DNA from: a virus
Reading direction: 5' to 3' (one strand)
Virus record (IMG/VR): IMGVR_UViG_3300004369_000627
Coordinates: 1 to 30,104 of that record
DNA: 30,104 bases
Below, piece after piece: positions 2,532 to 12,249 of the stretch. Below the pieces are notes generated by a model. It searched no databases, was not told the origin of the DNA, and worked only from the letters and a program-made list of their open reading frames with translations. The stretch's first letter is position 1. Every line of letters begins with the position of its first letter. The translations under genes were made by a program, and so were the position numbers.

Positions 2532-2654
2532 TTAAGCGTTCCTCTCTTCTGCTGACAATGAAGGATGTCTTTCTGCTGGCTCTTGATCGTCGTCAAAATC
2601 AGCTTCGTAATTGTCTGGGTCGATGCCAAGTGCTTCTGAAAAATAGTCGTGCAT
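2532..2654 (-). CDS. 40-residue acidic protein, first gene of the sigma-factor unit
   Basis: A complete small reading frame that is easily missed because of its size. It starts at the ATG at 2654, just after a promoter and leader hairpin, and ends with TAA at 2532-2534. The product begins MHDYFSEALGIDPDNYEADF and continues with an acidic run (DDDQEPAE) to ...LSAEERNA. It is strongly acidic with no hydrophobic segment. The position (promoter, hairpin, CA-rich leader, ATG) matches that of the 80-residue gene in the neighbouring module. Small acidic phage early proteins often bind host factors, but no function can be assigned. The longer overlapping frame through this region is not favoured, since it would have to start inside the promoter. 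Confidence 0.65.
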   Translation of the reverse strand: MHDYFSEALGIDPDNYEADFDDDQEPAERHPSLSAEERNA

Positions 2655-2670
2655 GGTTTTTGTGTGTGGT

Positions 2671-2684
2671 GGAGGTCTCCCTCC
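2671..2684 (-). promoter_or_regulatory. 5' leader hairpin after promoter A
   Basis: On the minus strand GGAGG, loop GAGA, CCTCC forms a short GC-rich hairpin beginning 8 bases after the -10 box, so at or near the 5' end of the transcript. A single-stranded CA-rich stretch of about 16 bases then leads to the ATG. The GGAGG is too far from the ATG (over 20 bases) to be its ribosome binding site. The other two units with this promoter type have hairpins of different sequence at the same place. Confidence 0.55.
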
Positions 2685-2692
2685 TTGCTAAT

Positions 2693-2741
2693 ACTATATA
2701 CCCTTGTGCACAGCTTGTACAATCCCTTTACAATGCTGTAA
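2693..2741 (-). promoter_or_regulatory. Early promoter A with conserved spacer and upstream palindrome
   Basis: The -10 is TATAGT (2693-2698) and the -35 TTGTAC (2717-2722), with an 18-base spacer. The spacer holds AAGCTGTGCACAAGGGTA, nearly identical to the spacers of the promoters at 3255 and 6316 and similar to that at 7285. Five bases upstream of the -35 is the inverted repeat TTACA-N4-TGTAA (2728-2741), which also contains the stop codon of the gene upstream. Conservation beyond the -35 and -10 boxes suggests an operator. It should drive the genes from 2654 down to the sigma factor. Confidence 0.7.
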
Positions 2742-2910
2742 CAATGCGTTGTACGGTAGATCTGCTGATCCCCATGTGCGTCGCGATTTGACGTTGCGTC
2801 CAGCCCCTATGGCGTAGGCGCATAGCCCGTTGGTTTCTAGTTTCTGTTGCCCATAAAATTACCAGCAGCGGCAATAACAGCACTGCTACAAATAGCGCGA
2901 GTGTAGTCAT
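2728..2910 (-). CDS. Membrane-anchored helix-turn-helix protein (60 aa)
   Basis: Residues 2-21 form a strongly hydrophobic membrane segment (TLALFVAVLLLPLLVILW). A short basic region follows, then residues 35-58 form a resolvase/Hin-type helix-turn-helix (RGWTQRQIATHMGISRSTVQRI). The whole protein is therefore a DNA-binding helix-turn-helix on a membrane anchor. N-in or N-out topology is unclear, but the basic segment after the helix favours a cytoplasmic C terminus. The ATG at 2910 lies 21 bases after pseudoknot copy 2, and the stop falls inside the operator-like palindrome of promoter A. It could regulate the repeated promoters. Resolvase-type helix-turn-helix motifs are well known; fusion to a membrane segment at this size is unusual. 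Confidence 0.75.
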   Translation of the reverse strand: MTTLALFVAVLLLPLLVILWATETRNQRAMRLRHRGWTQRQIATHMGISRSTVQRIVTAL

Positions 2911-2931
2911 AATTAGAAGAAAAATGTTTGT

Positions 2932-2964
2932 TGCTAGATTTTGGGCGGCTCTAGCGGGCCGCGT
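2932..2964 (-). promoter_or_regulatory. Putative H-type RNA pseudoknot, copy 2
   Basis: Same fold as the element at 2488-2520: stem 1 GCGGC/GCCGC, loop 1 CC, stem 2 GCTAGA/TCTAGC, loop 3 CCAAAA. Relative to copy 1, the C-G pair at the third position of stem 2 is T-A here, a compensatory change. The other two differences fall in loop 3. It begins 5 bases after the stop of the 80-residue gene and ends 21 bases before the ATG of the membrane-anchored helix-turn-helix gene. Confidence 0.65.
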
Positions 2965-2969
2965 TGGCT

Positions 2970-3212
2970 TTACGCCAGTTCAACCCAGTAAGCCGCAGGG
3001 AATCCAGCTGGCGTTTCATCGTCTTCAAAGCTTGTAACGAGCCCCTTGGAAATTAAAGAGCCGAGTACTCCAGCAGTTACATGATCGTTGTTAAAGGGGC
3101 TAATTTCATGTAGCCAGCCGCTCCCAGCTTCATCCATGCCGGCCTGAATTGCTTCATACAGCGCCTGCTCCTTGTCGGTGAGGCTGAGGTTGGAGGTAAT
3201 GGTGGTGTTCAT
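2970..3212 (-). CDS. 80-residue hypothetical protein, possible winged helix
   Basis: The start at 3212 is preferred over the longer open frame to 3284 because the extension only translates the promoter and hairpin. The product is MNTTITSNLSLTDKEQALYE... ending ...YWVELA. The pattern is a helix (TDKEQALYEAIQAGMDE), a middle segment with HEISPFNNDHVTAGVLGSL, then ISKGLVTSFEDD and a terminal strand AAYWVEL. It resembles a small MarR-like winged helix, in which the turn 'KGLV' precedes the wing. Possibly a DNA-binding regulator; not certain. It is the first gene after promoter B and is followed directly by pseudoknot copy 2. Confidence 0.7.
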   Translation of the reverse strand: MNTTITSNLSLTDKEQALYEAIQAGMDEAGSGWLHEISPFNNDHVTAGVLGSLISKGLVTSFEDDETPAGFPAAYWVELA

Positions 3213-3227
3213 GATTTGTGTGGCGGG

Positions 3228-3245
3228 GGAGGTCCGTTTGCCTCC
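3228..3245 (-). promoter_or_regulatory. 5' leader hairpin after promoter B
   Basis: On the minus strand GGAGG, an 8-base loop and CCTCC form a hairpin starting 9 bases after the -10 box. The stem is the same as in the promoter A leader but the loop differs (CAAACGGA instead of GAGA). A C- and A-rich unstructured leader of 15 bases separates it from the ATG at 3212. Confidence 0.55.
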
Positions 3246-3254
3246 GATGTACTT

Positions 3255-3303
3255 ATTATACACCCTTATGCACAGGGTGTACACCCCCTTTACAAAGCTG
3301 TAA
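3255..3303 (-). promoter_or_regulatory. Early promoter B with conserved spacer and upstream palindrome
   Basis: The -10 is TATAAT (3255-3260), a perfect consensus, and the -35 GTGTAC (3279-3284), with an 18-base spacer ACCCTGTGCATAAGGGTG. The inverted repeat TTACA-N4-TGTAA lies at 3290-3303, exactly as far from the -35 as in promoter A. It drives the 80-residue gene and the membrane-anchored helix-turn-helix gene. The terminator of the upstream unit ends right beside it. Confidence 0.72.
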
Positions 3304-3304
3304 C

Positions 3305-3326
3305 AAAAAGCCGGGTTCCCCCGGCT
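3305..3326 (-). terminator. Rho-independent terminator after ssb
   Basis: On the minus strand AGCCGGG, loop GGAA, CCCGGCT forms a perfect 7-bp GC-rich stem followed by five T. It lies 24 bases after the stop of the single-strand binding protein gene, closing the recombination unit, and immediately before promoter B. Confidence 0.85.
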
Positions 3327-3350
3327 GCGTTTACAAATTAGTAGCGACGC

Positions 3351-3677
3351 TCAGAATGGTGCCTCCATAGTTTTTGCCTTAGGCGGCAAACTAAAATCAT
3401 TTACCCGTAGCACAATCTTGGCGCCCTTTTCACCGTCCTTGCGGTCGTACTGCTCCACATAGCCATCGCCAGTCACGGTTACCTGTGATCCCTTAGAAAG
3501 ATAATCACCGATTACCTGGCAGCGTTTGCCCCATACAGAGCAATCCACTGCTGTTACGATGTCGCCGTTTTTGCTTTTGCGATTGCACAGAATAGTAAAA
3601 TTTGCAACCTCAATATCACCAACAGTTTTGATTTCAGGGTCGCGGGCAAGATTGCCTACAGCAGTTAAAGTCAACAT
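3351..3677 (-). CDS. ssb: Single-stranded DNA-binding protein (SSB)
   Basis: A 108-residue single-domain OB-fold protein that coats single-stranded DNA during phage replication and recombination. The family signature is clear: the first strand with VGNLARDPEIK, the middle FTILCNRKS and VDCSVWGKRCQVIGDYLSKGSQVTVTG, and the closing VEQYDRKDGEKGAKIVLRVNDF. It is shorter than bacterial SSB (about 150-180) because the glycine/proline-rich linker is nearly absent. It still ends in PF, like the protein-binding tip of bacterial SSB. It is last in the unit with the annealing protein and RusA and is followed by a terminator. Function is well supported by the motifs. Confidence 0.92.
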   Translation of the reverse strand: MLTLTAVGNLARDPEIKTVGDIEVANFTILCNRKSKNGDIVTAVDCSVWGKRCQVIGDYLSKGSQVTVTGDGYVEQYDRKDGEKGAKIVLRVNDFSLPPKAKTMEAPF

Positions 3678-3716
3678 AGTTAAGTAGCGTTTGGATAAAA
3701 GCGTTGCCGACTAGCG

Positions 3717-4409
3717 TTAGCTAGACAGAAACGCATTGACAAATTCAACATGTTCTTGAGTTTTGATTTCTTTAGATAACGCAGTTTTCGAATCGAGTTT
3801 AAATTTAGTTCTAAATGCTTTTGTTAAACTTTCAATTTTTTCTGGCGTGTTGGTGTGCACTTCTAATAGCAACCCCATTACGACCTGATATTCGTCCTCA
3901 CGAATTGGCATATCGCCAGGTTCAATCCGATTGTTTGCTTCAGGCTTAGCAGGTGCAATTGTTTTTGTTTTATGTTCTACCGGTGCTGGAGCTATAACGA
4001 CACCAGCTTCAGCAACTTCTTCTTTAGCCCATAGCTCATAGCCCAGCGACAACGTATAAGCCGCGCAAGCGCATAATGCTCGACGGTGTGCATCGGTTAA
4101 TGCTCTGGCGCTAATTTTATCAAACTGCACTGCATTGTTCCTGTTATCCATGATAGGAAACGGAAAATCAGCCGTTGCTTCATCTCCTGGGCCAGTAAAA
4201 TAACCAATTAAATAACCAGTACCATCTGGCGCTTTCCAGATATGTTCTCCATCTCTCGTAGTTTTTAAATGAAATTCCCAGCCAGGAGCGTGAGTATGTA
4301 AATGATTTGCAATTCGCGCCCAAGCAACATAAGAAGCAGCGTAGGAGCCACTGCCTTTGCTGTAAACGTCATCTTTTTTAATAATGCCAGCAAGATTCGG
4401 ATAAGTCAT
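3717..4409 (-). CDS. Single-strand annealing protein, DUF1071/Sak-type
   Basis: A 230-residue protein resembling the DUF1071 (SSAP_Sak) family of phage recombinases, which anneal complementary single strands as Red-beta and Erf do. Seen in sequence: an N-terminal YVAWARIANHLHTHAPGWEF, the central FPIMDNRNNAVQFDKISARA, and the helix LTDAHRRALCACAAYTLSLG followed by YELWAKEE. This order fits the family pattern (aromatic-rich start, 'MDN..NA', 'R.L...A..LGLY'). A Pro/Ala/Lys-rich linker (about 140-165) leads to a small helical C-terminal domain. It overlaps the RusA gene by 4 bases and sits next to SSB, the usual partners. The family call rests on recalled motifs, not a search. Confidence 0.75.
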   Translation of the reverse strand: MTYPNLAGIIKKDDVYSKGSGSYAASYVAWARIANHLHTHAPGWEFHLKTTRDGEHIWKAPDGTGYLIGYFTGPGDEATADFPFPIMDNRNNAVQFDKISARALTDAHRRALCACAAYTLSLGYELWAKEEVAEAGVVIAPAPVEHKTKTIAPAKPEANNRIEPGDMPIREDEYQVVMGLLLEVHTNTPEKIESLTKAFRTKFKLDSKTALSKEIKTQEHVEFVNAFLSS

Positions 4410-4846
4410 GAGATGATTTTGTAAATAGGTGTGCAGGTAATAATTGCGCCAGGCCGCTCTGAATTAGAGCAGTAACGCTTGTTAGCATTGATTTCAACAA
4501 CTTGTGAATCGTCGTCGAATAAAACAGTGGTCAGGGCATCTAGGATGCCACGAACAAGTTTGTCAATATCACCAATGCTTTTGCTTGTAGCTAAAGCTGG
4601 TGATTTAGGTGTTAATTGCCCTTTAGTGTTGTAATGCGATTTTGGCCGCAGGAAACAAAAAGCAATGTTAACTGACATGGGAGCTGTCGTTTCCCATGAT
4701 GCTGGACGGTGCTGCTGTGCGCCAAAACGCACATCATGCCGCCAGGTTTTAATATGCGGGCTAGCTTCAATCATGCGGCCATTGCCTAATGATTTTTTGC
4801 TGCCTTGTGGTCTGCTTACGCCTTCCACAAAAAAAGTAACCGTCAC
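4406..4846 (-). CDS. rusA: RusA-like Holliday junction resolvase
   Basis: A 146-residue endonuclease of the RusA family, which cuts four-way DNA junctions made by recombination or replication. The diagnostic acidic cluster is present: GDIDKLVRGILDAL (metal-binding aspartates) and VLFDDDSQVVEINANKRY (second acidic cluster, then basic residues). The N-terminal strand VTFFVEGVSRPQGSKK also matches the family start. Length is close to the usual 120-150. Both ends overlap neighbouring genes by 4 bases (ATGA), so it is coupled to the annealing protein downstream. It probably resolves branched concatemers before packaging. Confidence 0.9.
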   Translation of the reverse strand: MTVTFFVEGVSRPQGSKKSLGNGRMIEASPHIKTWRHDVRFGAQQHRPASWETTAPMSVNIAFCFLRPKSHYNTKGQLTPKSPALATSKSIGDIDKLVRGILDALTTVLFDDDSQVVEINANKRYCSNSERPGAIITCTPIYKIIS

Positions 4847-5145
4847 TTTTGTTTAACATGAGTCACACAAATATAGTTGGTTGTTTTAAATGTTGCAAGA
4901 CCAGAATGTTGTTCTCGTTCTTGCATAGATTTAACCATCGGAGAATAACTCCATGTTGTTCTTGTACGGCGTTCAAGGCAAACGTTTCCCATAATAGCAT
5001 TTCCTTTCTCGTTTAAATATTGATTAAGTTCACCTAACGACCATTTGAAAGAAATGTTATCAATAAGTTCTGCTTTTTCTTTTTCTAGCACTTTAATAGC
5101 AGCAGAAATTTCTGAGATCCGTTGAGTCATAATTTGTACAGTCAT
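4843..5145 (-). CDS. Hypothetical phage protein with N-terminal coiled coil
   Basis: A 100-residue protein. Residues 8-30 form a heptad-like helix (ISEISAAIKVLEKEKAELID). The C-terminal half has a distinctive stretch, TTWSYSPMVKSMQEREQHSG followed by ATFKTTNYICV. Similar 'W-Y-S-P-x-V-K' endings are familiar in small phage early proteins of unknown role. It starts 4 bases after the previous stop and its end overlaps the RusA start by 4 bases, so it is co-translated with the recombination genes. An alternative start is the internal ATG at residue 6. No function assigned. Confidence 0.75.
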   Translation of the reverse strand: MTVQIMTQRISEISAAIKVLEKEKAELIDNISFKWSLGELNQYLNEKGNAIMGNVCLERRTRTTWSYSPMVKSMQEREQHSGLATFKTTNYICVTHVKQK

Positions 5146-5149
5146 AGCG

Positions 5150-5557
5150 TTAAACAGGCAACGCTATAACATTATCATTTTCGTTAAATTGCCTGCGTAA
5201 ATTGCCTACTCTTTTATTGTATTTGTTTTGGCAAAGGCAATATTCAATCTGTAATTTATCTACTAATTCTTTTTGATTTCCTATTTCTTGACAAGCAAGT
5301 GATAGCAATTCTGCATAGGAATTACTCATGCCATATAAATCGCATGTGCACTCATCAGATTCGTCTGTTTTAGCAAGAGCATCGTCAATAAAACTATCTA
5401 ATTTCATCAAAATTGCCATTCGGTACGTCAACCTACGCAACCGTGTTTCTTGCGCTTCTAAAATTGCTGAACCTAAATCAATCTCATGCCGAAATTGAAG
5501 TAGCTCAGTATCAGAGCAAGATTCAAGCCATTGGAGCCAAGTTTGTTTTGTTGTCAT
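5150..5557 (-). CDS. Hypothetical helical protein
   Basis: A 135-residue, largely alpha-helical protein with no recognised family. Residues 1-60 include charged amphipathic helices (TELLQFRHEIDLGSAILEAQ, then RLRRLTYRMAILMKL). Four cysteines occur at CTC in the middle and CLC nearer the C terminus, without a clear zinc-finger spacing. It is the fourth gene of the unit from promoter C, with an 18-base gap before it and 4 bases after it. Probably cytoplasmic and possibly a coiled-coil dimer. Confidence 0.75.
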   Translation of the reverse strand: MTTKQTWLQWLESCSDTELLQFRHEIDLGSAILEAQETRLRRLTYRMAILMKLDSFIDDALAKTDESDECTCDLYGMSNSYAELLSLACQEIGNQKELVDKLQIEYCLCQNKYNKRVGNLRRQFNENDNVIALPV

Positions 5558-5575
5558 GATTTTAAAAAAGTGTGT

Positions 5576-5878
5576 TTACAGTTGATTTGAAATGTTTTTA
5601 AGTTGTGTAGGTTCAAAATTTAAGTCGCGTTCTATTTTTAAACCGAATGGTCCTTTAATTTCTTCCAATTCAATTAAGCTAAAATAACCTAATTCGTCTT
5701 CATGCCCTTTAACTAAACCAAAAAACAATTTGCTGTCTGGGTCAAATTCAAAAGCATACCAAGTCCAATCAGACCATGGTGTAAAAAATTTAACATATGC
5801 AGTTGCTTCTAACCCTTTGCCATCTTGTTCATATAAAGCAGGAATTTTTTTTGCTGTAGCTTTTGTAAGAAGTTTCAT
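5576..5878 (-). CDS. DUF2958 family protein
   Basis: A 100-residue protein matching the DUF2958 family, common in phages, plasmids and mobile elements; its function is not known. The family pattern is easy to see: start [20 protein letters not shown], the core [19 protein letters not shown], then [20 protein letters not shown], and the end [12 protein letters not shown]. Length is near the usual 100-120. It lies in the middle of the recombination unit, 7 bases from the gene before it. The name is secure from recalled motifs; the role is unknown. Confidence 0.85.
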
Positions 5879-5885
5879 TGGAAAA

Positions 5886-6095
5886 TTAAGAGAATTGTTT
5901 ACGTTTAAGGTAGCTGTTTGTAAGTTTTTTGTCTAGCATGTCAATTGCATGTACATAAGAGCCAAGTTCATAGTATAAGTTGTTTGGATCTTTTTGTAAA
6001 CGGTTTGATTCAATGCGAACAAGAGCATAAAGCATGTTTAGTTCGTGATTTGTAAGGCTTAGATTTTCTGGGTAAAGTGTGTAGGATGCCATCAT
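5886..6095 (-). CDS. Small hypothetical protein
   Basis: The preferred start is the ATG at 6095, one base after the stop of the upstream gene, giving 69 residues; a second ATG follows at once (6092). A longer open frame to 6170 would overlap the upstream gene extensively and is less likely. The protein is helical ([20 protein letters not shown] and [20 protein letters not shown]) and ends in a basic tail (YLKRKQFS). No family recognised. It is second in the unit from promoter C. Confidence 0.65.
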
Positions 6096-9246: not shown

Positions 9247-9750
9247 ATGCCATCAATCAACGATTTTAAAACAGACAGTAAAAATGCACGTAAAAGAACC
9301 AACCAATCGGCAACATTGATTCAAGAGTCACTTAAGAGATATGGCGCAGCACGTTCAATTGTTGTTGATGAAAATGGAGTAGTGCTTGCTGGCAATGGTA
9401 CCTTTGAAAGTGCAAAGTCTGCTGGTATTACAAAAGTCAGAGTAATCGAGAGCGATGGAACTGAATTGATTGCAGTTCGCAGAACTGATTTGTCTGACGA
9501 GGAAAAAGTAGGCCTTGCGCTTGCAGATAATAGAACATCAGAACTATCCTCATGGGATAATGAAATGCTTCATAGGTTGTCTATGGAGCATGATATATCC
9601 CCGTGGTTTGAGCAAGACGACATATCGGCATTAATAGATGACCCAACCGAAAAGATTGCGCCAGAAAATTTTGCTGAAGTTGGAGAAGACATTGCAATTG
9701 AATATCGCTGCCCATCCTGTGGATACGAATGGAGCGGAAAAACAAAATGA
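9247..9750 (+). CDS. ParB/Srx-like domain protein of the modification cassette
   Basis: A 167-residue protein with a ParB/sulfiredoxin-like fold. Residues 20-80 hold the core: LIQESLKRYGAARSIVVDEN, then GVVLAGNGTFESAKSAGITK (the GN-x-x-x-E-x-A nucleotide/DNA-binding motif). Then comes EEKVGLALADNRTSELSSWD, a stretch familiar from phage ParB domains fused to or next to DNA methyltransferases. The C terminus has CPSCGYEW, half of a zinc ribbon. No methyltransferase is fused here; separate enzymes follow. It may position the modification enzymes on DNA or act as a nucleotide switch. Its stop overlaps the next start (ATGA). The fold is confident, the role inferred from its neighbours. Confidence 0.82.
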   Translation: MPSINDFKTDSKNARKRTNQSATLIQESLKRYGAARSIVVDENGVVLAGNGTFESAKSAGITKVRVIESDGTELIAVRRTDLSDEEKVGLALADNRTSELSSWDNEMLHRLSMEHDISPWFEQDDISALIDDPTEKIAPENFAEVGEDIAIEYRCPSCGYEWSGKTK

Positions 9751-10550
9751 TTGGACCAGTTAGACCTACACTAAGAAGAATCATAGCGCCACTACCAAAA
9801 CAAATAGCGGTATCAATGTCTGGGGGCATTGACTCTTCTAGCGTAATTGTTGCGGCGCTTGACGAAGGTAAAGATGTAACCGTTTTTTCTTTTACTTTTG
9901 AAGACTTTGAATCAACGGATTTCAAAGCCGCTAAAAAAATAGCTCAAAAATATAAACTACCTTTTGTTGAAGTACTTTTACCGTCTTGCCCCGGCAAAAT
10001 ATATGAAACAATTCAAGTAATTATTCGTCAATGCAGAATAAAAAAAAAGACAGCAGTTGAATGTGTTTTCCCGTTCGTGTTTTTAATTGATAAAATATGC
10101 CAATTTGATTTTAAGTGTTTACTGACCGGGCATGCTGCAGACGGGCATTTTGGCGTTTCAAAAAAAGCAATGATGCACTTTCGAGAACCACTAAGCAAAT
10201 TTAACGAATTTCGGCAAGAGTATTTTTCAAACCCTAATAGCTCACAAGTTAAAACACTTAAAAGCTACTGCCTAACAAAAGGAATAAATTTATCTACTCC
10301 ATATTTTGAACCTGACATATTCGCACTTTTTATTAACAGACCATGGAATGAATTGAACAAACCACGACAAAAAGAAGCGATTAGAATTGAATTTCCTGAT
10401 TTAGATGATCTCGCAATCAAACCACATAGCAACCTGCAAATGGGGGATTCACGTATTGCGGAAAGAGTTGGAGCAGCCGCATTAATGCACTTGCCTAATG
10501 CAAAAAATCCTGTTGCAGTATACAATCGCATTTATAGCGGGCATCTATGA
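9747..10550 (+). CDS. Asparagine-synthetase-like PP-loop ATP pyrophosphatase
   Basis: A 267-residue enzyme of the adenine nucleotide alpha-hydrolase class. Residues 20-50 contain the PP-loop SMSGGIDSSSVIVAALDEG, and about 130-140 has LLTGHAADGHFG, which parallels the 'G-x-G-A/S-D-E-x-F-G' loop of asparagine synthetase. The N-terminal glutaminase domain of AsnB is absent, so ammonia or another amine would be taken directly. Such enzymes adenylate a carboxylate or carbonyl and replace AMP by nitrogen. With a cytosine methyltransferase and a CmoA-like enzyme downstream, amidation of a modified base is a reasonable inference. The ATG at 9747 (ATGA overlap, GGAG 12 bases upstream) is preferred over 9729. 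Confidence 0.8.
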   Translation: MIGPVRPTLRRIIAPLPKQIAVSMSGGIDSSSVIVAALDEGKDVTVFSFTFEDFESTDFKAAKKIAQKYKLPFVEVLLPSCPGKIYETIQVIIRQCRIKKKTAVECVFPFVFLIDKICQFDFKCLLTGHAADGHFGVSKKAMMHFREPLSKFNEFRQEYFSNPNSSQVKTLKSYCLTKGINLSTPYFEPDIFALFINRPWNELNKPRQKEAIRIEFPDLDDLAIKPHSNLQMGDSRIAERVGAAALMHLPNAKNPVAVYNRIYSGHL

Positions 10551-11599
10551 AGCCAGCCTATAAAGTGCCGTCAATGGAAGAAATTACGGCAATACCTTGG
10601 AATAGATACAAGGTTGCATCTACATTTTCCGGATGCGGCGGATCTTGTCTGGGTTACCGAATGGCTGGATTTAAAGTTGTATATGCGAATGAATTTATCC
10701 CGGAAGCTCAAGAAACCTACAAAGCAAACCATCCAAATAGTTTTCTTGATCCAAGGGATATTCGCACAATACAGCCATCCGAGATTCTCAGCGCAACAGG
10801 TATTGCCGCTGGTGAGCTTGATTTGCTAGACGGGTCACCCCCTTGCTCAGCTTTTTCTACCGCTGGCAAAAGAGAAGGCGGCTGGGGCGAAGTAAAAAAA
10901 TACAGCGACACCGAGCAACGAGTAGATGACCTATTTTTTGAATATGTACGCCTGCTCAAAGGATTGCAGCCCAAGGTATTTGTTGCAGAAAACGTAACCG
11001 GGTTGGTTAAAGGAACTGCAAAAGGATATTTTAAGACGATACTTGCAGCCATGAAAGAATCCGGCTACAACGTAACATGCCGCATTCTTAATTCATGTTG
11101 GCTTGGTGTCCCACAAGCAAGGCAACGTACTATCTTTGTAGGAACAAGAAATGACTTGCAAGTTATGCCAGTTCATCCAGAGCCACTTCCATATTGCTAC
11201 ACAATTAGAGATTGTCTGGAAGGTGTATCAGGGGATAGTTTGTTTAGGCCGTTAACTCCTGGCACAAGACTACATGACTATTGGGAAGCATCAAAGCCTG
11301 GCGACCAGTTCAATAAAATCTCAAAAAAACGCAGAGGTGTTGATGCTTTTTATTCGCACATTAAAATGTCACCAGCGCGGCAAGCAAATACGATTACGCA
11401 GGTTTGCGCTATGTATCATTGGAATGAACCACGAAGCCTTACGATTGCAGAATTAAAAAGAGTTAGCGGGTTTCCGGATGACTTTATCTTTACCGGATCA
11501 TTTAGCAAGCAATGGGAAAGAATTGGTAGAGCTGTACCACCTGTAATGATGTCGCACGTAGCCTCTACAATACGCTCAAAGATATTGGACCTCATATGA
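10547..11599 (+). CDS. C5-cytosine DNA methyltransferase-like enzyme with Arg in motif X
   Basis: A 350-residue enzyme with the ordered C5-methyltransferase motifs: I (FSGCGGSCLGYRMAGF, SAM binding), IV (GSPPCSAFSTAGKRE, with the catalytic Cys), VI (AENV), VIII (PQARQRTIFVG), IX and X. The target-recognition region lies at about 225-300. Motif X reads RIGRAVPPVMM, where the family usually has G-N-x-V; the Asn is replaced by Arg. As I recall, changing the equivalent Asn in M.MpeI to a basic residue lets it use carboxy-SAM. It overlaps both neighbours by 4 bases. It could be an ordinary 5-methylcytosine enzyme, but the CmoA-like and PP-loop neighbours argue for a larger modification. No restriction endonuclease is nearby, so it probably protects phage DNA. 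Confidence 0.93.
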   Translation: MKPAYKVPSMEEITAIPWNRYKVASTFSGCGGSCLGYRMAGFKVVYANEFIPEAQETYKANHPNSFLDPRDIRTIQPSEILSATGIAAGELDLLDGSPPCSAFSTAGKREGGWGEVKKYSDTEQRVDDLFFEYVRLLKGLQPKVFVAENVTGLVKGTAKGYFKTILAAMKESGYNVTCRILNSCWLGVPQARQRTIFVGTRNDLQVMPVHPEPLPYCYTIRDCLEGVSGDSLFRPLTPGTRLHDYWEASKPGDQFNKISKKRRGVDAFYSHIKMSPARQANTITQVCAMYHWNEPRSLTIAELKRVSGFPDDFIFTGSFSKQWERIGRAVPPVMMSHVASTIRSKILDLI

Positions 11600-12249
11600 A
11601 AATCCCACGCAATTGGACATTCGAAACTGAAGAAGTAGCTAACGGTTTTGACAAGCATGTTAGAGAACAGTTGCCATGGTACGATCTTGCTACTGATGCC
11701 TTAAAACATATAGCTAGGCATTACATACCTCAAGATGGTATTGTTTACGATATCGGAGCATCTACTGGCAATATCGGACGAGCATTGGCACCTGTGATTC
11801 AAGCAAGAAATGCAAAACTAATTGCTATTGAACCATCAAAGGAAATGTGCAAAATTTACAATGCACCAGGCGAGGTCTTTTGTTCTAAAGCAGAAGATTT
11901 TGACTTTGATGCGTTTGACCTTGCGGTATTATTTCTTTGCCTTATGTTTATTGAACCTAGAAAAAGAATACAGCTTATGAATAAGTTGCGTCTAAATTGT
12001 CGCCCTGGCGGCGCTATTATTGTATTTGATAAACTTGAACCCAGAGGAGGATATATTTCAACAATTTTATATCGCCTTACACTGGCTGGCAAAAAAGCTG
12101 CTAATGTATCAGCAGAAGAAATTATTGAGAAAGAGTTGTCTTTGTCAGGTGTGCAACGACCAATTACTGAAGAACAACTTGGAGGCAGTTTTGTGAACTG
12201 GTTCAGGTTTGGCGATTTCTCTGGTTACATTATTGAGAGACCTGCTTAA
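11596..12249 (+). CDS. CmoA-like class I SAM-dependent enzyme
   Basis: A 217-residue protein resembling CmoA, which converts SAM and prephenate to carboxy-SAM. Shared features by eye: RNWTFETEEVANGFDKHVRE near the start (CmoA has WTFDERVAEVF), the SAM motif VYDIGASTGNIG (CmoA VYDLGCSLGAA), LIAIEPSKEM, then FLCLMFIEPRKR and RPGGAIIVFDKLEP, and NWFRFGDFSGYI near the end (CmoA LWFQCFNFGSL). The CmoA arginine contacting the carboxylate is not obvious at the aligned position, so carboxy-SAM synthesis is unproven; it may be another methyltransferase. It is the last gene of the coupled cassette (ATGA overlap at 11596). Confidence 0.75.
   Translation: MKIPRNWTFETEEVANGFDKHVREQLPWYDLATDALKHIARHYIPQDGIVYDIGASTGNIGRALAPVIQARNAKLIAIEPSKEMCKIYNAPGEVFCSKAEDFDFDAFDLAVLFLCLMFIEPRKRIQLMNKLRLNCRPGGAIIVFDKLEPRGGYISTILYRLTLAGKKAANVSAEEIIEKELSLSGVQRPITEEQLGGSFVNWFRFGDFSGYIIERPA

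Follow-up and report, generated by a model that had tools for sequence, protein, structure and literature searches.

The locus examined here raises the question of which group is transferred to DNA by a phage C5 cytosine methyltransferase homologue in which an arginine stands in place of the asparagine of motif X. The window, as we call the whole stretch of DNA analysed, is a 30,104-base virus record from IMG/VR, with genes for the terminase, the portal, head morphogenesis, and capsid and tail proteins. A sequence-only reading had singled out the motif X segment RIGRAVPP and had proposed that this natural arginine, next to a CmoA-like gene, marks a DNA carboxymethyltransferase that uses carboxy-SAM (Cx-SAM). 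We are quite confident that this contig comes from a tailed phage and encodes a DNA hypermodification cassette of the CmoA-CmoX-CmoY type, a judgement that applies jointly to the whole of the explanation developed below.

The motif X arginine and the published enzyme SpCmoX

The gene in question (positions 10547-11599, plus strand) encodes a protein of 350 residues that matches the Pfam DNA_methylase family (E 2.8e-61) and that we refer to as CmoX, a predicted C5 cytosine carboxymethyltransferase. The substitution had been read exactly: RIGRAVPP corresponds to CmoX residues 325-332 (11519-11542), the Arg328 codon is AGA (11528-11530, plus strand, inside the interval 11512-11550 that had been flagged), and alignments to M.HaeIII and DNMT1 chains agree in placing Arg328 opposite the Asn of IGNAVP or VGNAVPP. 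The survey described below contains 103 non-redundant enzymes with arginine at this column (with or without CmoA, the window copy counted), indicating that Arg328 is no sequencing or chance oddity.

The top PDB match of CmoX is 8yf3 (E 5.2e-74), with M.HaeIII far behind (5.6e-30). This is the structure of SpCmoX from Synechococcus phage S-B43, described in the main text of Yang et al. (Nat Commun, Dec 2025; PMC12783734) as a DNA cytosine C5-carboxymethyltransferase. According to the same source, SpCmoX Arg350 replaces Asn304 of M.HhaI and contacts the carboxymethyl group of Cx-SAM through its carboxylate; wild-type SpCmoX accepts Cx-SAM as its only donor, and the R350N variant uses neither Cx-SAM nor SAM. 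CmoX and SpCmoX are identical at 142 of 337 aligned residues (~42%). The C5 methyltransferase fold and the SPPC nucleophile motif (residues 97-100) are present in the window enzyme, with the catalytic Cys100 (10844-10846, plus strand) aligned to Cys98 of SpCmoX. F27, E49, F50 and D71 of CmoX correspond to the Cx-SAM contacts F25, E47, F48 and D69, and Arg328, the predicted binder of the Cx-SAM carboxylate, aligns with Arg350, which makes that contact in 8YF3. The window enzyme thus retains all the residues to which the main text of PMC12783734 assigns Cx-SAM contact or catalysis (F27, E49, F50, D71, C100 and R328). By analogy with a homologue whose activity was established biochemically and by crystal structure, the proposal of a natural DNA carboxymethyltransferase is well supported, and we are highly confident that CmoX would prove Cx-SAM-dependent.

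The proposal had also leaned on a precedent, that a basic residue at the equivalent position of M.MpeI permits use of carboxy-SAM, which is borne out in outline: an engineered M.MpeI N374K that takes Cx-SAM is cited in the main text of PMC12783734. In both enzymes a basic residue occupies the position of the same Asn; the M.MpeI variant is a laboratory mutant with a Lys and a CG target, whereas the Arg of the window enzyme is natural. Over the whole window (1-30104) the GC dinucleotide is over-represented (observed/expected 1.67) and CG stands at 0.90. If the window CmoX targets GC, the target of SpCmoX, sites for it would be dense.

Motif X residues and CmoA neighbours across loci

Our survey of relatives of the methyltransferase, CmoA and the ligase, drawn from IMG/VR, bacterial genomes and named phages, held 365 loci when counted. 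Genes were found by HMM, the residue at motif X was read, and CmoA was scored as a neighbour when it lay within 4 kb with a score above 80; 90 of the 431 methyltransferase-profile rows lacked a residue in the motif X column and went unscored. Among non-redundant enzymes from all sources, a CmoA neighbour was found for 95 Arg enzymes and missing for 8, as against 0 and 95 for Asn, 0 and 65 for Met, 0 and 3 for Lys, 5 and 0 for Gly, and 0 and 4 for D, E, Q and S combined. When only loci retrieved with methyltransferase queries were counted, the corresponding values were 47 and 7 for Arg, 0 and 93 for Asn, 0 and 64 for Met, 0 and 3 for Lys, 4 and 0 for Gly, and 0 and 4 for D, E, Q and S. The sequence-only reading had proposed a test of whether G-R-x-V and G-K-x-V variants are enriched beside CmoA-like genes. 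The enrichment is for Arg only: CmoA lay nearby in 47 of 54 Arg enzymes in the methyltransferase-query loci, so that G-R-x-V is not found mostly away from CmoA, and G-K-x-V was seen three times, never with CmoA. We also considered that the CmoA-like neighbour might be there by chance and rejected this, since 95 of the 103 non-redundant Arg enzymes have one. The survey further contained a large Met clade (L104 and L180-L259), with motif X reading IGMSVPP and CmoA in none of its 65 non-redundant members.

The eight non-redundant Arg enzymes scored as lacking a CmoA neighbour are L047, L266, L054, L057, L058, L059, L060 and L282. For L047, CmoA lies just outside the fetched stretch, and for L266 (Erwinia phage pEa_SNUABM_35) it lies elsewhere in the genome, ~15 kb away. 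The L266 methyltransferase is encoded in a single ORF of 2130 bases (2642-4771), about twice the usual length, making an insert, perhaps intein-like, likely. No CmoA was present on the contigs of L054 and L057-L060, which span 4 to 35 kb, are all classed as linear and are possibly fragments. L054 (4950-5969) and its relatives L055-L062 and L065 are Arg enzymes with the motif ERIGRAVPPL, and a search of eight contigs of this group over their full length (4-35 kb, possibly incomplete) found no CmoA. It is possible that these phages encode CmoA elsewhere or that their Cx-SAM is supplied by the host. An apparent lack of the catalytic Cys in some Arg enzymes, as read from the HMM, proved to be due to misalignment for L054, the one checked, which has SPPC.

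The second departure from a strict pairing of Arg with CmoA comes from Staphylococcus-type phages, in which CmoA stands beside an HhaI-like methyltransferase with GGVI (VGGVI) at motif X and GSPC for SPPC; all five non-redundant enzymes of this kind have CmoA. They are encoded in L106 (phage vB-SscS-F1; 5768-6775) and L260 (5016-6011), each with a ligase, in L261 (5001-5999), in L262 and L263, and in L264 (an S. epidermidis SPbeta-like phage; 4690-5688). In L260, two C5 methyltransferase genes lie in tandem (4143-4988 and 5016-6011) after CmoA and the ligase, one with Arg and one with Gly, whereas the other records show one such gene each. The L260 Arg enzyme is of HhaI type, reads YERAGRTV and occupies a separate branch of the tree; a search for its relatives returned only itself and the distant L382, which had neither a CmoA-profile match nor a readable motif X. 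The closest Asn-bearing relatives of the Gly enzymes are those of Perkons and PT94, phages in which we found no CmoA. Together with the L054 group, the Gly enzymes indicate that Arg need not be accompanied by a linked CmoA and that CmoA also occurs beside a residue other than Arg. Cx-SAM may be bound by means other than Arg, and whether the Gly lineage represents a second, Arg-less natural route to DNA carboxymethylation is a proposition on which our judgement is evenly divided. The published census covered IMG/VR and required SPPC and R350 (PMC12783734, main text). The Gly lineage falls outside that filter, and carboxymethyl-DNA may thus extend beyond the census. No word beginning with "staphylo" occurs in the main text of that article, and a search at the level of titles and abstracts, with preprints and most subscription papers outside its scope, returned no other paper on this lineage.

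To place these enzymes by descent, we used a tree of 85 representatives built by a quick method with SH-aLRT support only, 6 of 91 (of the K, S, D and Q types) being excluded. On this tree Arg requires at least four changes, three of them forced by well-supported branches, and Met and Gly each form one clade. Two Asn-bearing enzymes, L064 and L283, are nested among Arg enzymes, and no CmoA was found in their whole contigs (34.7 and 71.8 kb) with the profile that found it elsewhere; Arg and CmoA thus seem to be gained or lost together. In an independent-pairs test, three pairs agreed, none disagreed and two tied; five pairs were too few to reach significance (p 0.25). A ParB-like partner with a CPxC tail is already present in the Asn-type sister group (CL131 and relatives), which suggests that CmoA, Arg and the ligase were added to an older pair of ParB-like protein and methyltransferase.

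A four-gene cassette with a ligase and a ParB-like partner

Four genes run in one direction in the window: ParB-like (9247-9750), ligase (9747, or 9729, to 10550), CmoX (10547-11599) and CmoA-like (11596-12249). The ligase and CmoX genes overlap by four bases, as do the CmoX and CmoA-like genes, where the overlap is ATGA. The ligase ORF opens at 9729, and a start at the ATG at 9747, which overlaps the stop codon of the ParB-like gene, would give the first two genes the same four-base overlap. The cassette is therefore probably translated as a unit. Among 100 non-redundant CmoA-linked loci of the Arg and Gly types, the window order ParB-ligase-CmoX-CmoA is the commonest layout (29 loci, the window counted), followed by ParB-CmoX-CmoA without a ligase (23) and ParB-CmoX-extended ligase-CmoA (13), the remaining layouts being smaller.

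The adjoining CmoA-like gene that had been noted from the sequence is real. It lies at 11596-12249 on the plus strand and encodes a protein of 217 residues, a predicted phage-type Cx-SAM synthase, whose top PDB match is E. coli CmoA (4gek, E 3.6e-14) and whose best characterised matches are CmoAs. It misses the TIGR00740 CmoA cut-off of 193.3 bits, scoring 70.1 (SpCmoA scores 115.6), and we therefore call it CmoA-like, of phage type; it is distantly related to SpCmoA (identity at 45 of 209 aligned residues, ~22%). Bacterial CmoA holds the Cx-SAM carboxylate through Arg199 and has Tyr39, Asp62 and Gly64 as SAM-site residues (both as given in PMC3663124). The latter three are retained in the window protein as Y29, D52 and G54 and are invariant in 115 distinct phage CmoA-like ORFs. 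Arg199 is replaced by Glu180 in the window protein and, by alignment, by Glu in SpCmoA as well; across the 115 ORFs this column holds Glu in 98, Arg in 7 and another residue or a gap in 10. Phage SpCmoA makes Cx-SAM with a kcat ~10 times that of E. coli CmoA (PMC12783734, main text). As SpCmoA has the Glu and a sub-cut-off score yet is active, the window protein would be expected by analogy to make Cx-SAM, presumably holding its carboxylate in some way other than through Arg199. Near the C-terminus, nearly all phage CmoA-like ORFs have a Lys or Arg (WFRFGDF in the window) where the aligned 4gek has Gln, and this near-invariant basic residue is a possible candidate for the carboxylate binder that replaces Arg199.

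The gene upstream of CmoX, overlooked in the sequence-only reading, is a hypermodifying ligase: a CmoY-type ATP-dependent amide ligase of the stand-alone, asparagine-synthetase-like PP-loop kind (9747-10550, plus strand; Asn_synthase E 4.4e-12). CmoY is an asparagine-synthetase homologue that couples glycine to 5-carboxymethylcytosine (5cxmC), as described in the main text of PMC12783734. The window ligase is identical to SpCmoY at 85 of 258 aligned residues (~33%) and, like a stand-alone CmoY, comprises the synthetase half of asparagine synthetase without the glutaminase domain. No solved structure matched it by sequence beyond a chance match (E 0.085). Its predicted structure (mean pLDDT 87.7) matches human asparagine synthetase over 258 residues with an rmsd of 3.2 (Z 22.8), beta-lactam synthetase 1mbz over 258 residues with an rmsd of 3.5 (Z 21.3) and E. 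coli AsnB 1ct9 over 261 residues with an rmsd of 3.3 (Z 19.4), other PP-loop enzymes scoring lower (LarE, for example, Z 12.6).

We classed ligases across the survey by two rules, as stand-alone (score >200) or as bearing an N-terminal extension, with ORFs fitting neither left uncounted. This gave 48 stand-alone ligases and 21 with an extension of glutaminase size, 19 of which carry a Cys-Gly motif of the kind that we take to be expected at the start of a glutaminase. The window ligase and SpCmoY have in common a stand-alone signature (S144 K145 K146 A147, H150, W206, N210, Q214, H233 and N235), which leads us to expect an amino acid such as glycine, and not ammonia, as the amine. A glycine amide as the final base is a prediction that we hold at about even confidence. 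The CmoA of L107 is 97% identical to that of the window, yet the L107 ligase is of the extended type, indicating that the enzyme that decorates the base changes while the core of the system stays the same. More generally, the CmoAs of L107-L110 and L112 are 82-97% identical to that of the window, and a glutaminase-type extended ligase lies between CmoX and CmoA in these loci.

The first gene of the cassette (9247-9750, plus strand) encodes a protein of 167 residues with a C-terminal CPSCGYEW knuckle. It is ParB-like by PHROGs only (PHROG 620, E 3.8e-26): it has no Pfam match at E 0.1, and PF02195 (ParBc) was absent in the genome profile search. ParBc neighbours are reported in many contigs in the main text of PMC12783734. 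In the fetched loci, a CxxC within the last 60 residues was found in 83 of 89 distinct ORFs with strong ParB-profile matches and in 176 of 3650 other ORFs of 120-300 residues. A CPxC tail was also present in 17 of 24 ParB-profile ORFs from loci without a CmoA match, beside Asn-type methyltransferases, and the tail is thus not special to carboxymethylation.

Comparison with named phages places the window close to the S-B43 system. In both, the three enzymes are encoded side by side, CmoX has the Arg, the Cys and the residues that contact Cx-SAM, the ligase is of the stand-alone type and CmoA has Glu for Arg199. They differ in gene order, which is CmoA-CmoY-CmoX in S-B43 and ParB-CmoY-CmoX-CmoA in the window; identity over aligned residues is ~42, 33 and 22% for CmoX, CmoY and CmoA, respectively. 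Streptomyces phage TurkishDelight, Moraxella phage Mcat8 and Pseudomonas phage PaBG resemble the window in combining an Arg CmoX with CmoA and ParB-like genes. Unlike the window, TurkishDelight has a glutaminase-fused ligase, Mcat8 has no ligase, and PaBG has a stand-alone ligase further downstream.

Proposed pathway, alternatives and significance

In the pathway that we propose, the CmoA-like protein would convert SAM to Cx-SAM using host prephenate. Cys100 of CmoX would attack C6 of the target cytosine while Arg328, in the place of the motif X Asn, would hold the Cx-SAM carboxylate so that a carboxymethyl rather than a methyl group is placed on C5, yielding 5-carboxymethylcytosine; the ligase would then add an amine, and the modified DNA would probably be shielded from host restriction before packaging. 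The evidence presented here consists of the sequence and order of the genes, the residues they conserve, the association seen across phages and a predicted ligase fold. Each chemical step has been shown in print for a homologue, from which we infer the same action by the window enzymes; the amine, the target site and the part played by the ParB-like protein are likewise what we infer in our best explanation.

That CmoX might be an ordinary SAM-dependent 5mC methyltransferase with a drifted motif X, its neighbours serving something else, draws on the observation that motif X does vary in the absence of CmoA, none of the 65 non-redundant Met enzymes having it. Arg tracks CmoA across the survey, though, and for this reason we reject simple drift; moreover, the SpCmoX crystal shows the equivalent Arg in contact with Cx-SAM, and the wild-type enzyme refuses SAM (PMC12783734, main text), leaving this reading with a very slight probability. 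Scarcely more probable is that CmoX is a carboxymethyltransferase supplied with Cx-SAM by the host's CmoA, the phage CmoA-like protein doing something else, such as methylating the new carboxylate. The loss of Arg199 to Glu would fit such a role, as would the Arg enzymes of the L054 group that lack a linked CmoA and the published finding that E. coli's own CmoA alone supplies SpCmoX with Cx-SAM (PMC12783734, main text). Against it, SpCmoA, which has the same Glu by alignment, is reported there to be an active Cx-SAM synthase, and the window protein finds its best characterised matches among CmoAs.

A far more serious contender keeps the pathway to 5cxmC intact and alters only its last step, with the ligase adding some other amine in place of glycine, whether a different amino acid, ammonia or a further compound; the end product would then be unlike that of S-B43. 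Only about one-third of the ligase residues match SpCmoY, ligase types are swapped between close relatives, and other amines are expected for some ligase clusters in the main text of PMC12783734. The stand-alone signature residues of SpCmoY are nonetheless present in the window ligase, and the absence of a glutaminase domain speaks against ammonia in particular. We regard a non-glycine amine as a real prospect, just short of an even one.

As a system of this kind appeared in print in December 2025 (PMC12783734, main text), the window represents a well-supported further example and not a new kind. Our preferred reading is that of a Cx-SAM-dependent CmoX within a CmoA-CmoX-CmoY cassette. Two residues by which Cx-SAM enzymes are recognised may be unreliable markers, to judge by the Gly lineage and by the absence of Arg199 from most phage CmoAs. 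The window phage, chosen blind, bears out the motif X Arg as a marker of phage DNA carboxymethyltransferases and shows the commonest layout of the cassette among the loci examined. The carboxymethyl group emerges as a chemical handle that is decorated by exchangeable phage ligases, which is useful for DNA labelling and for understanding how phages escape restriction.
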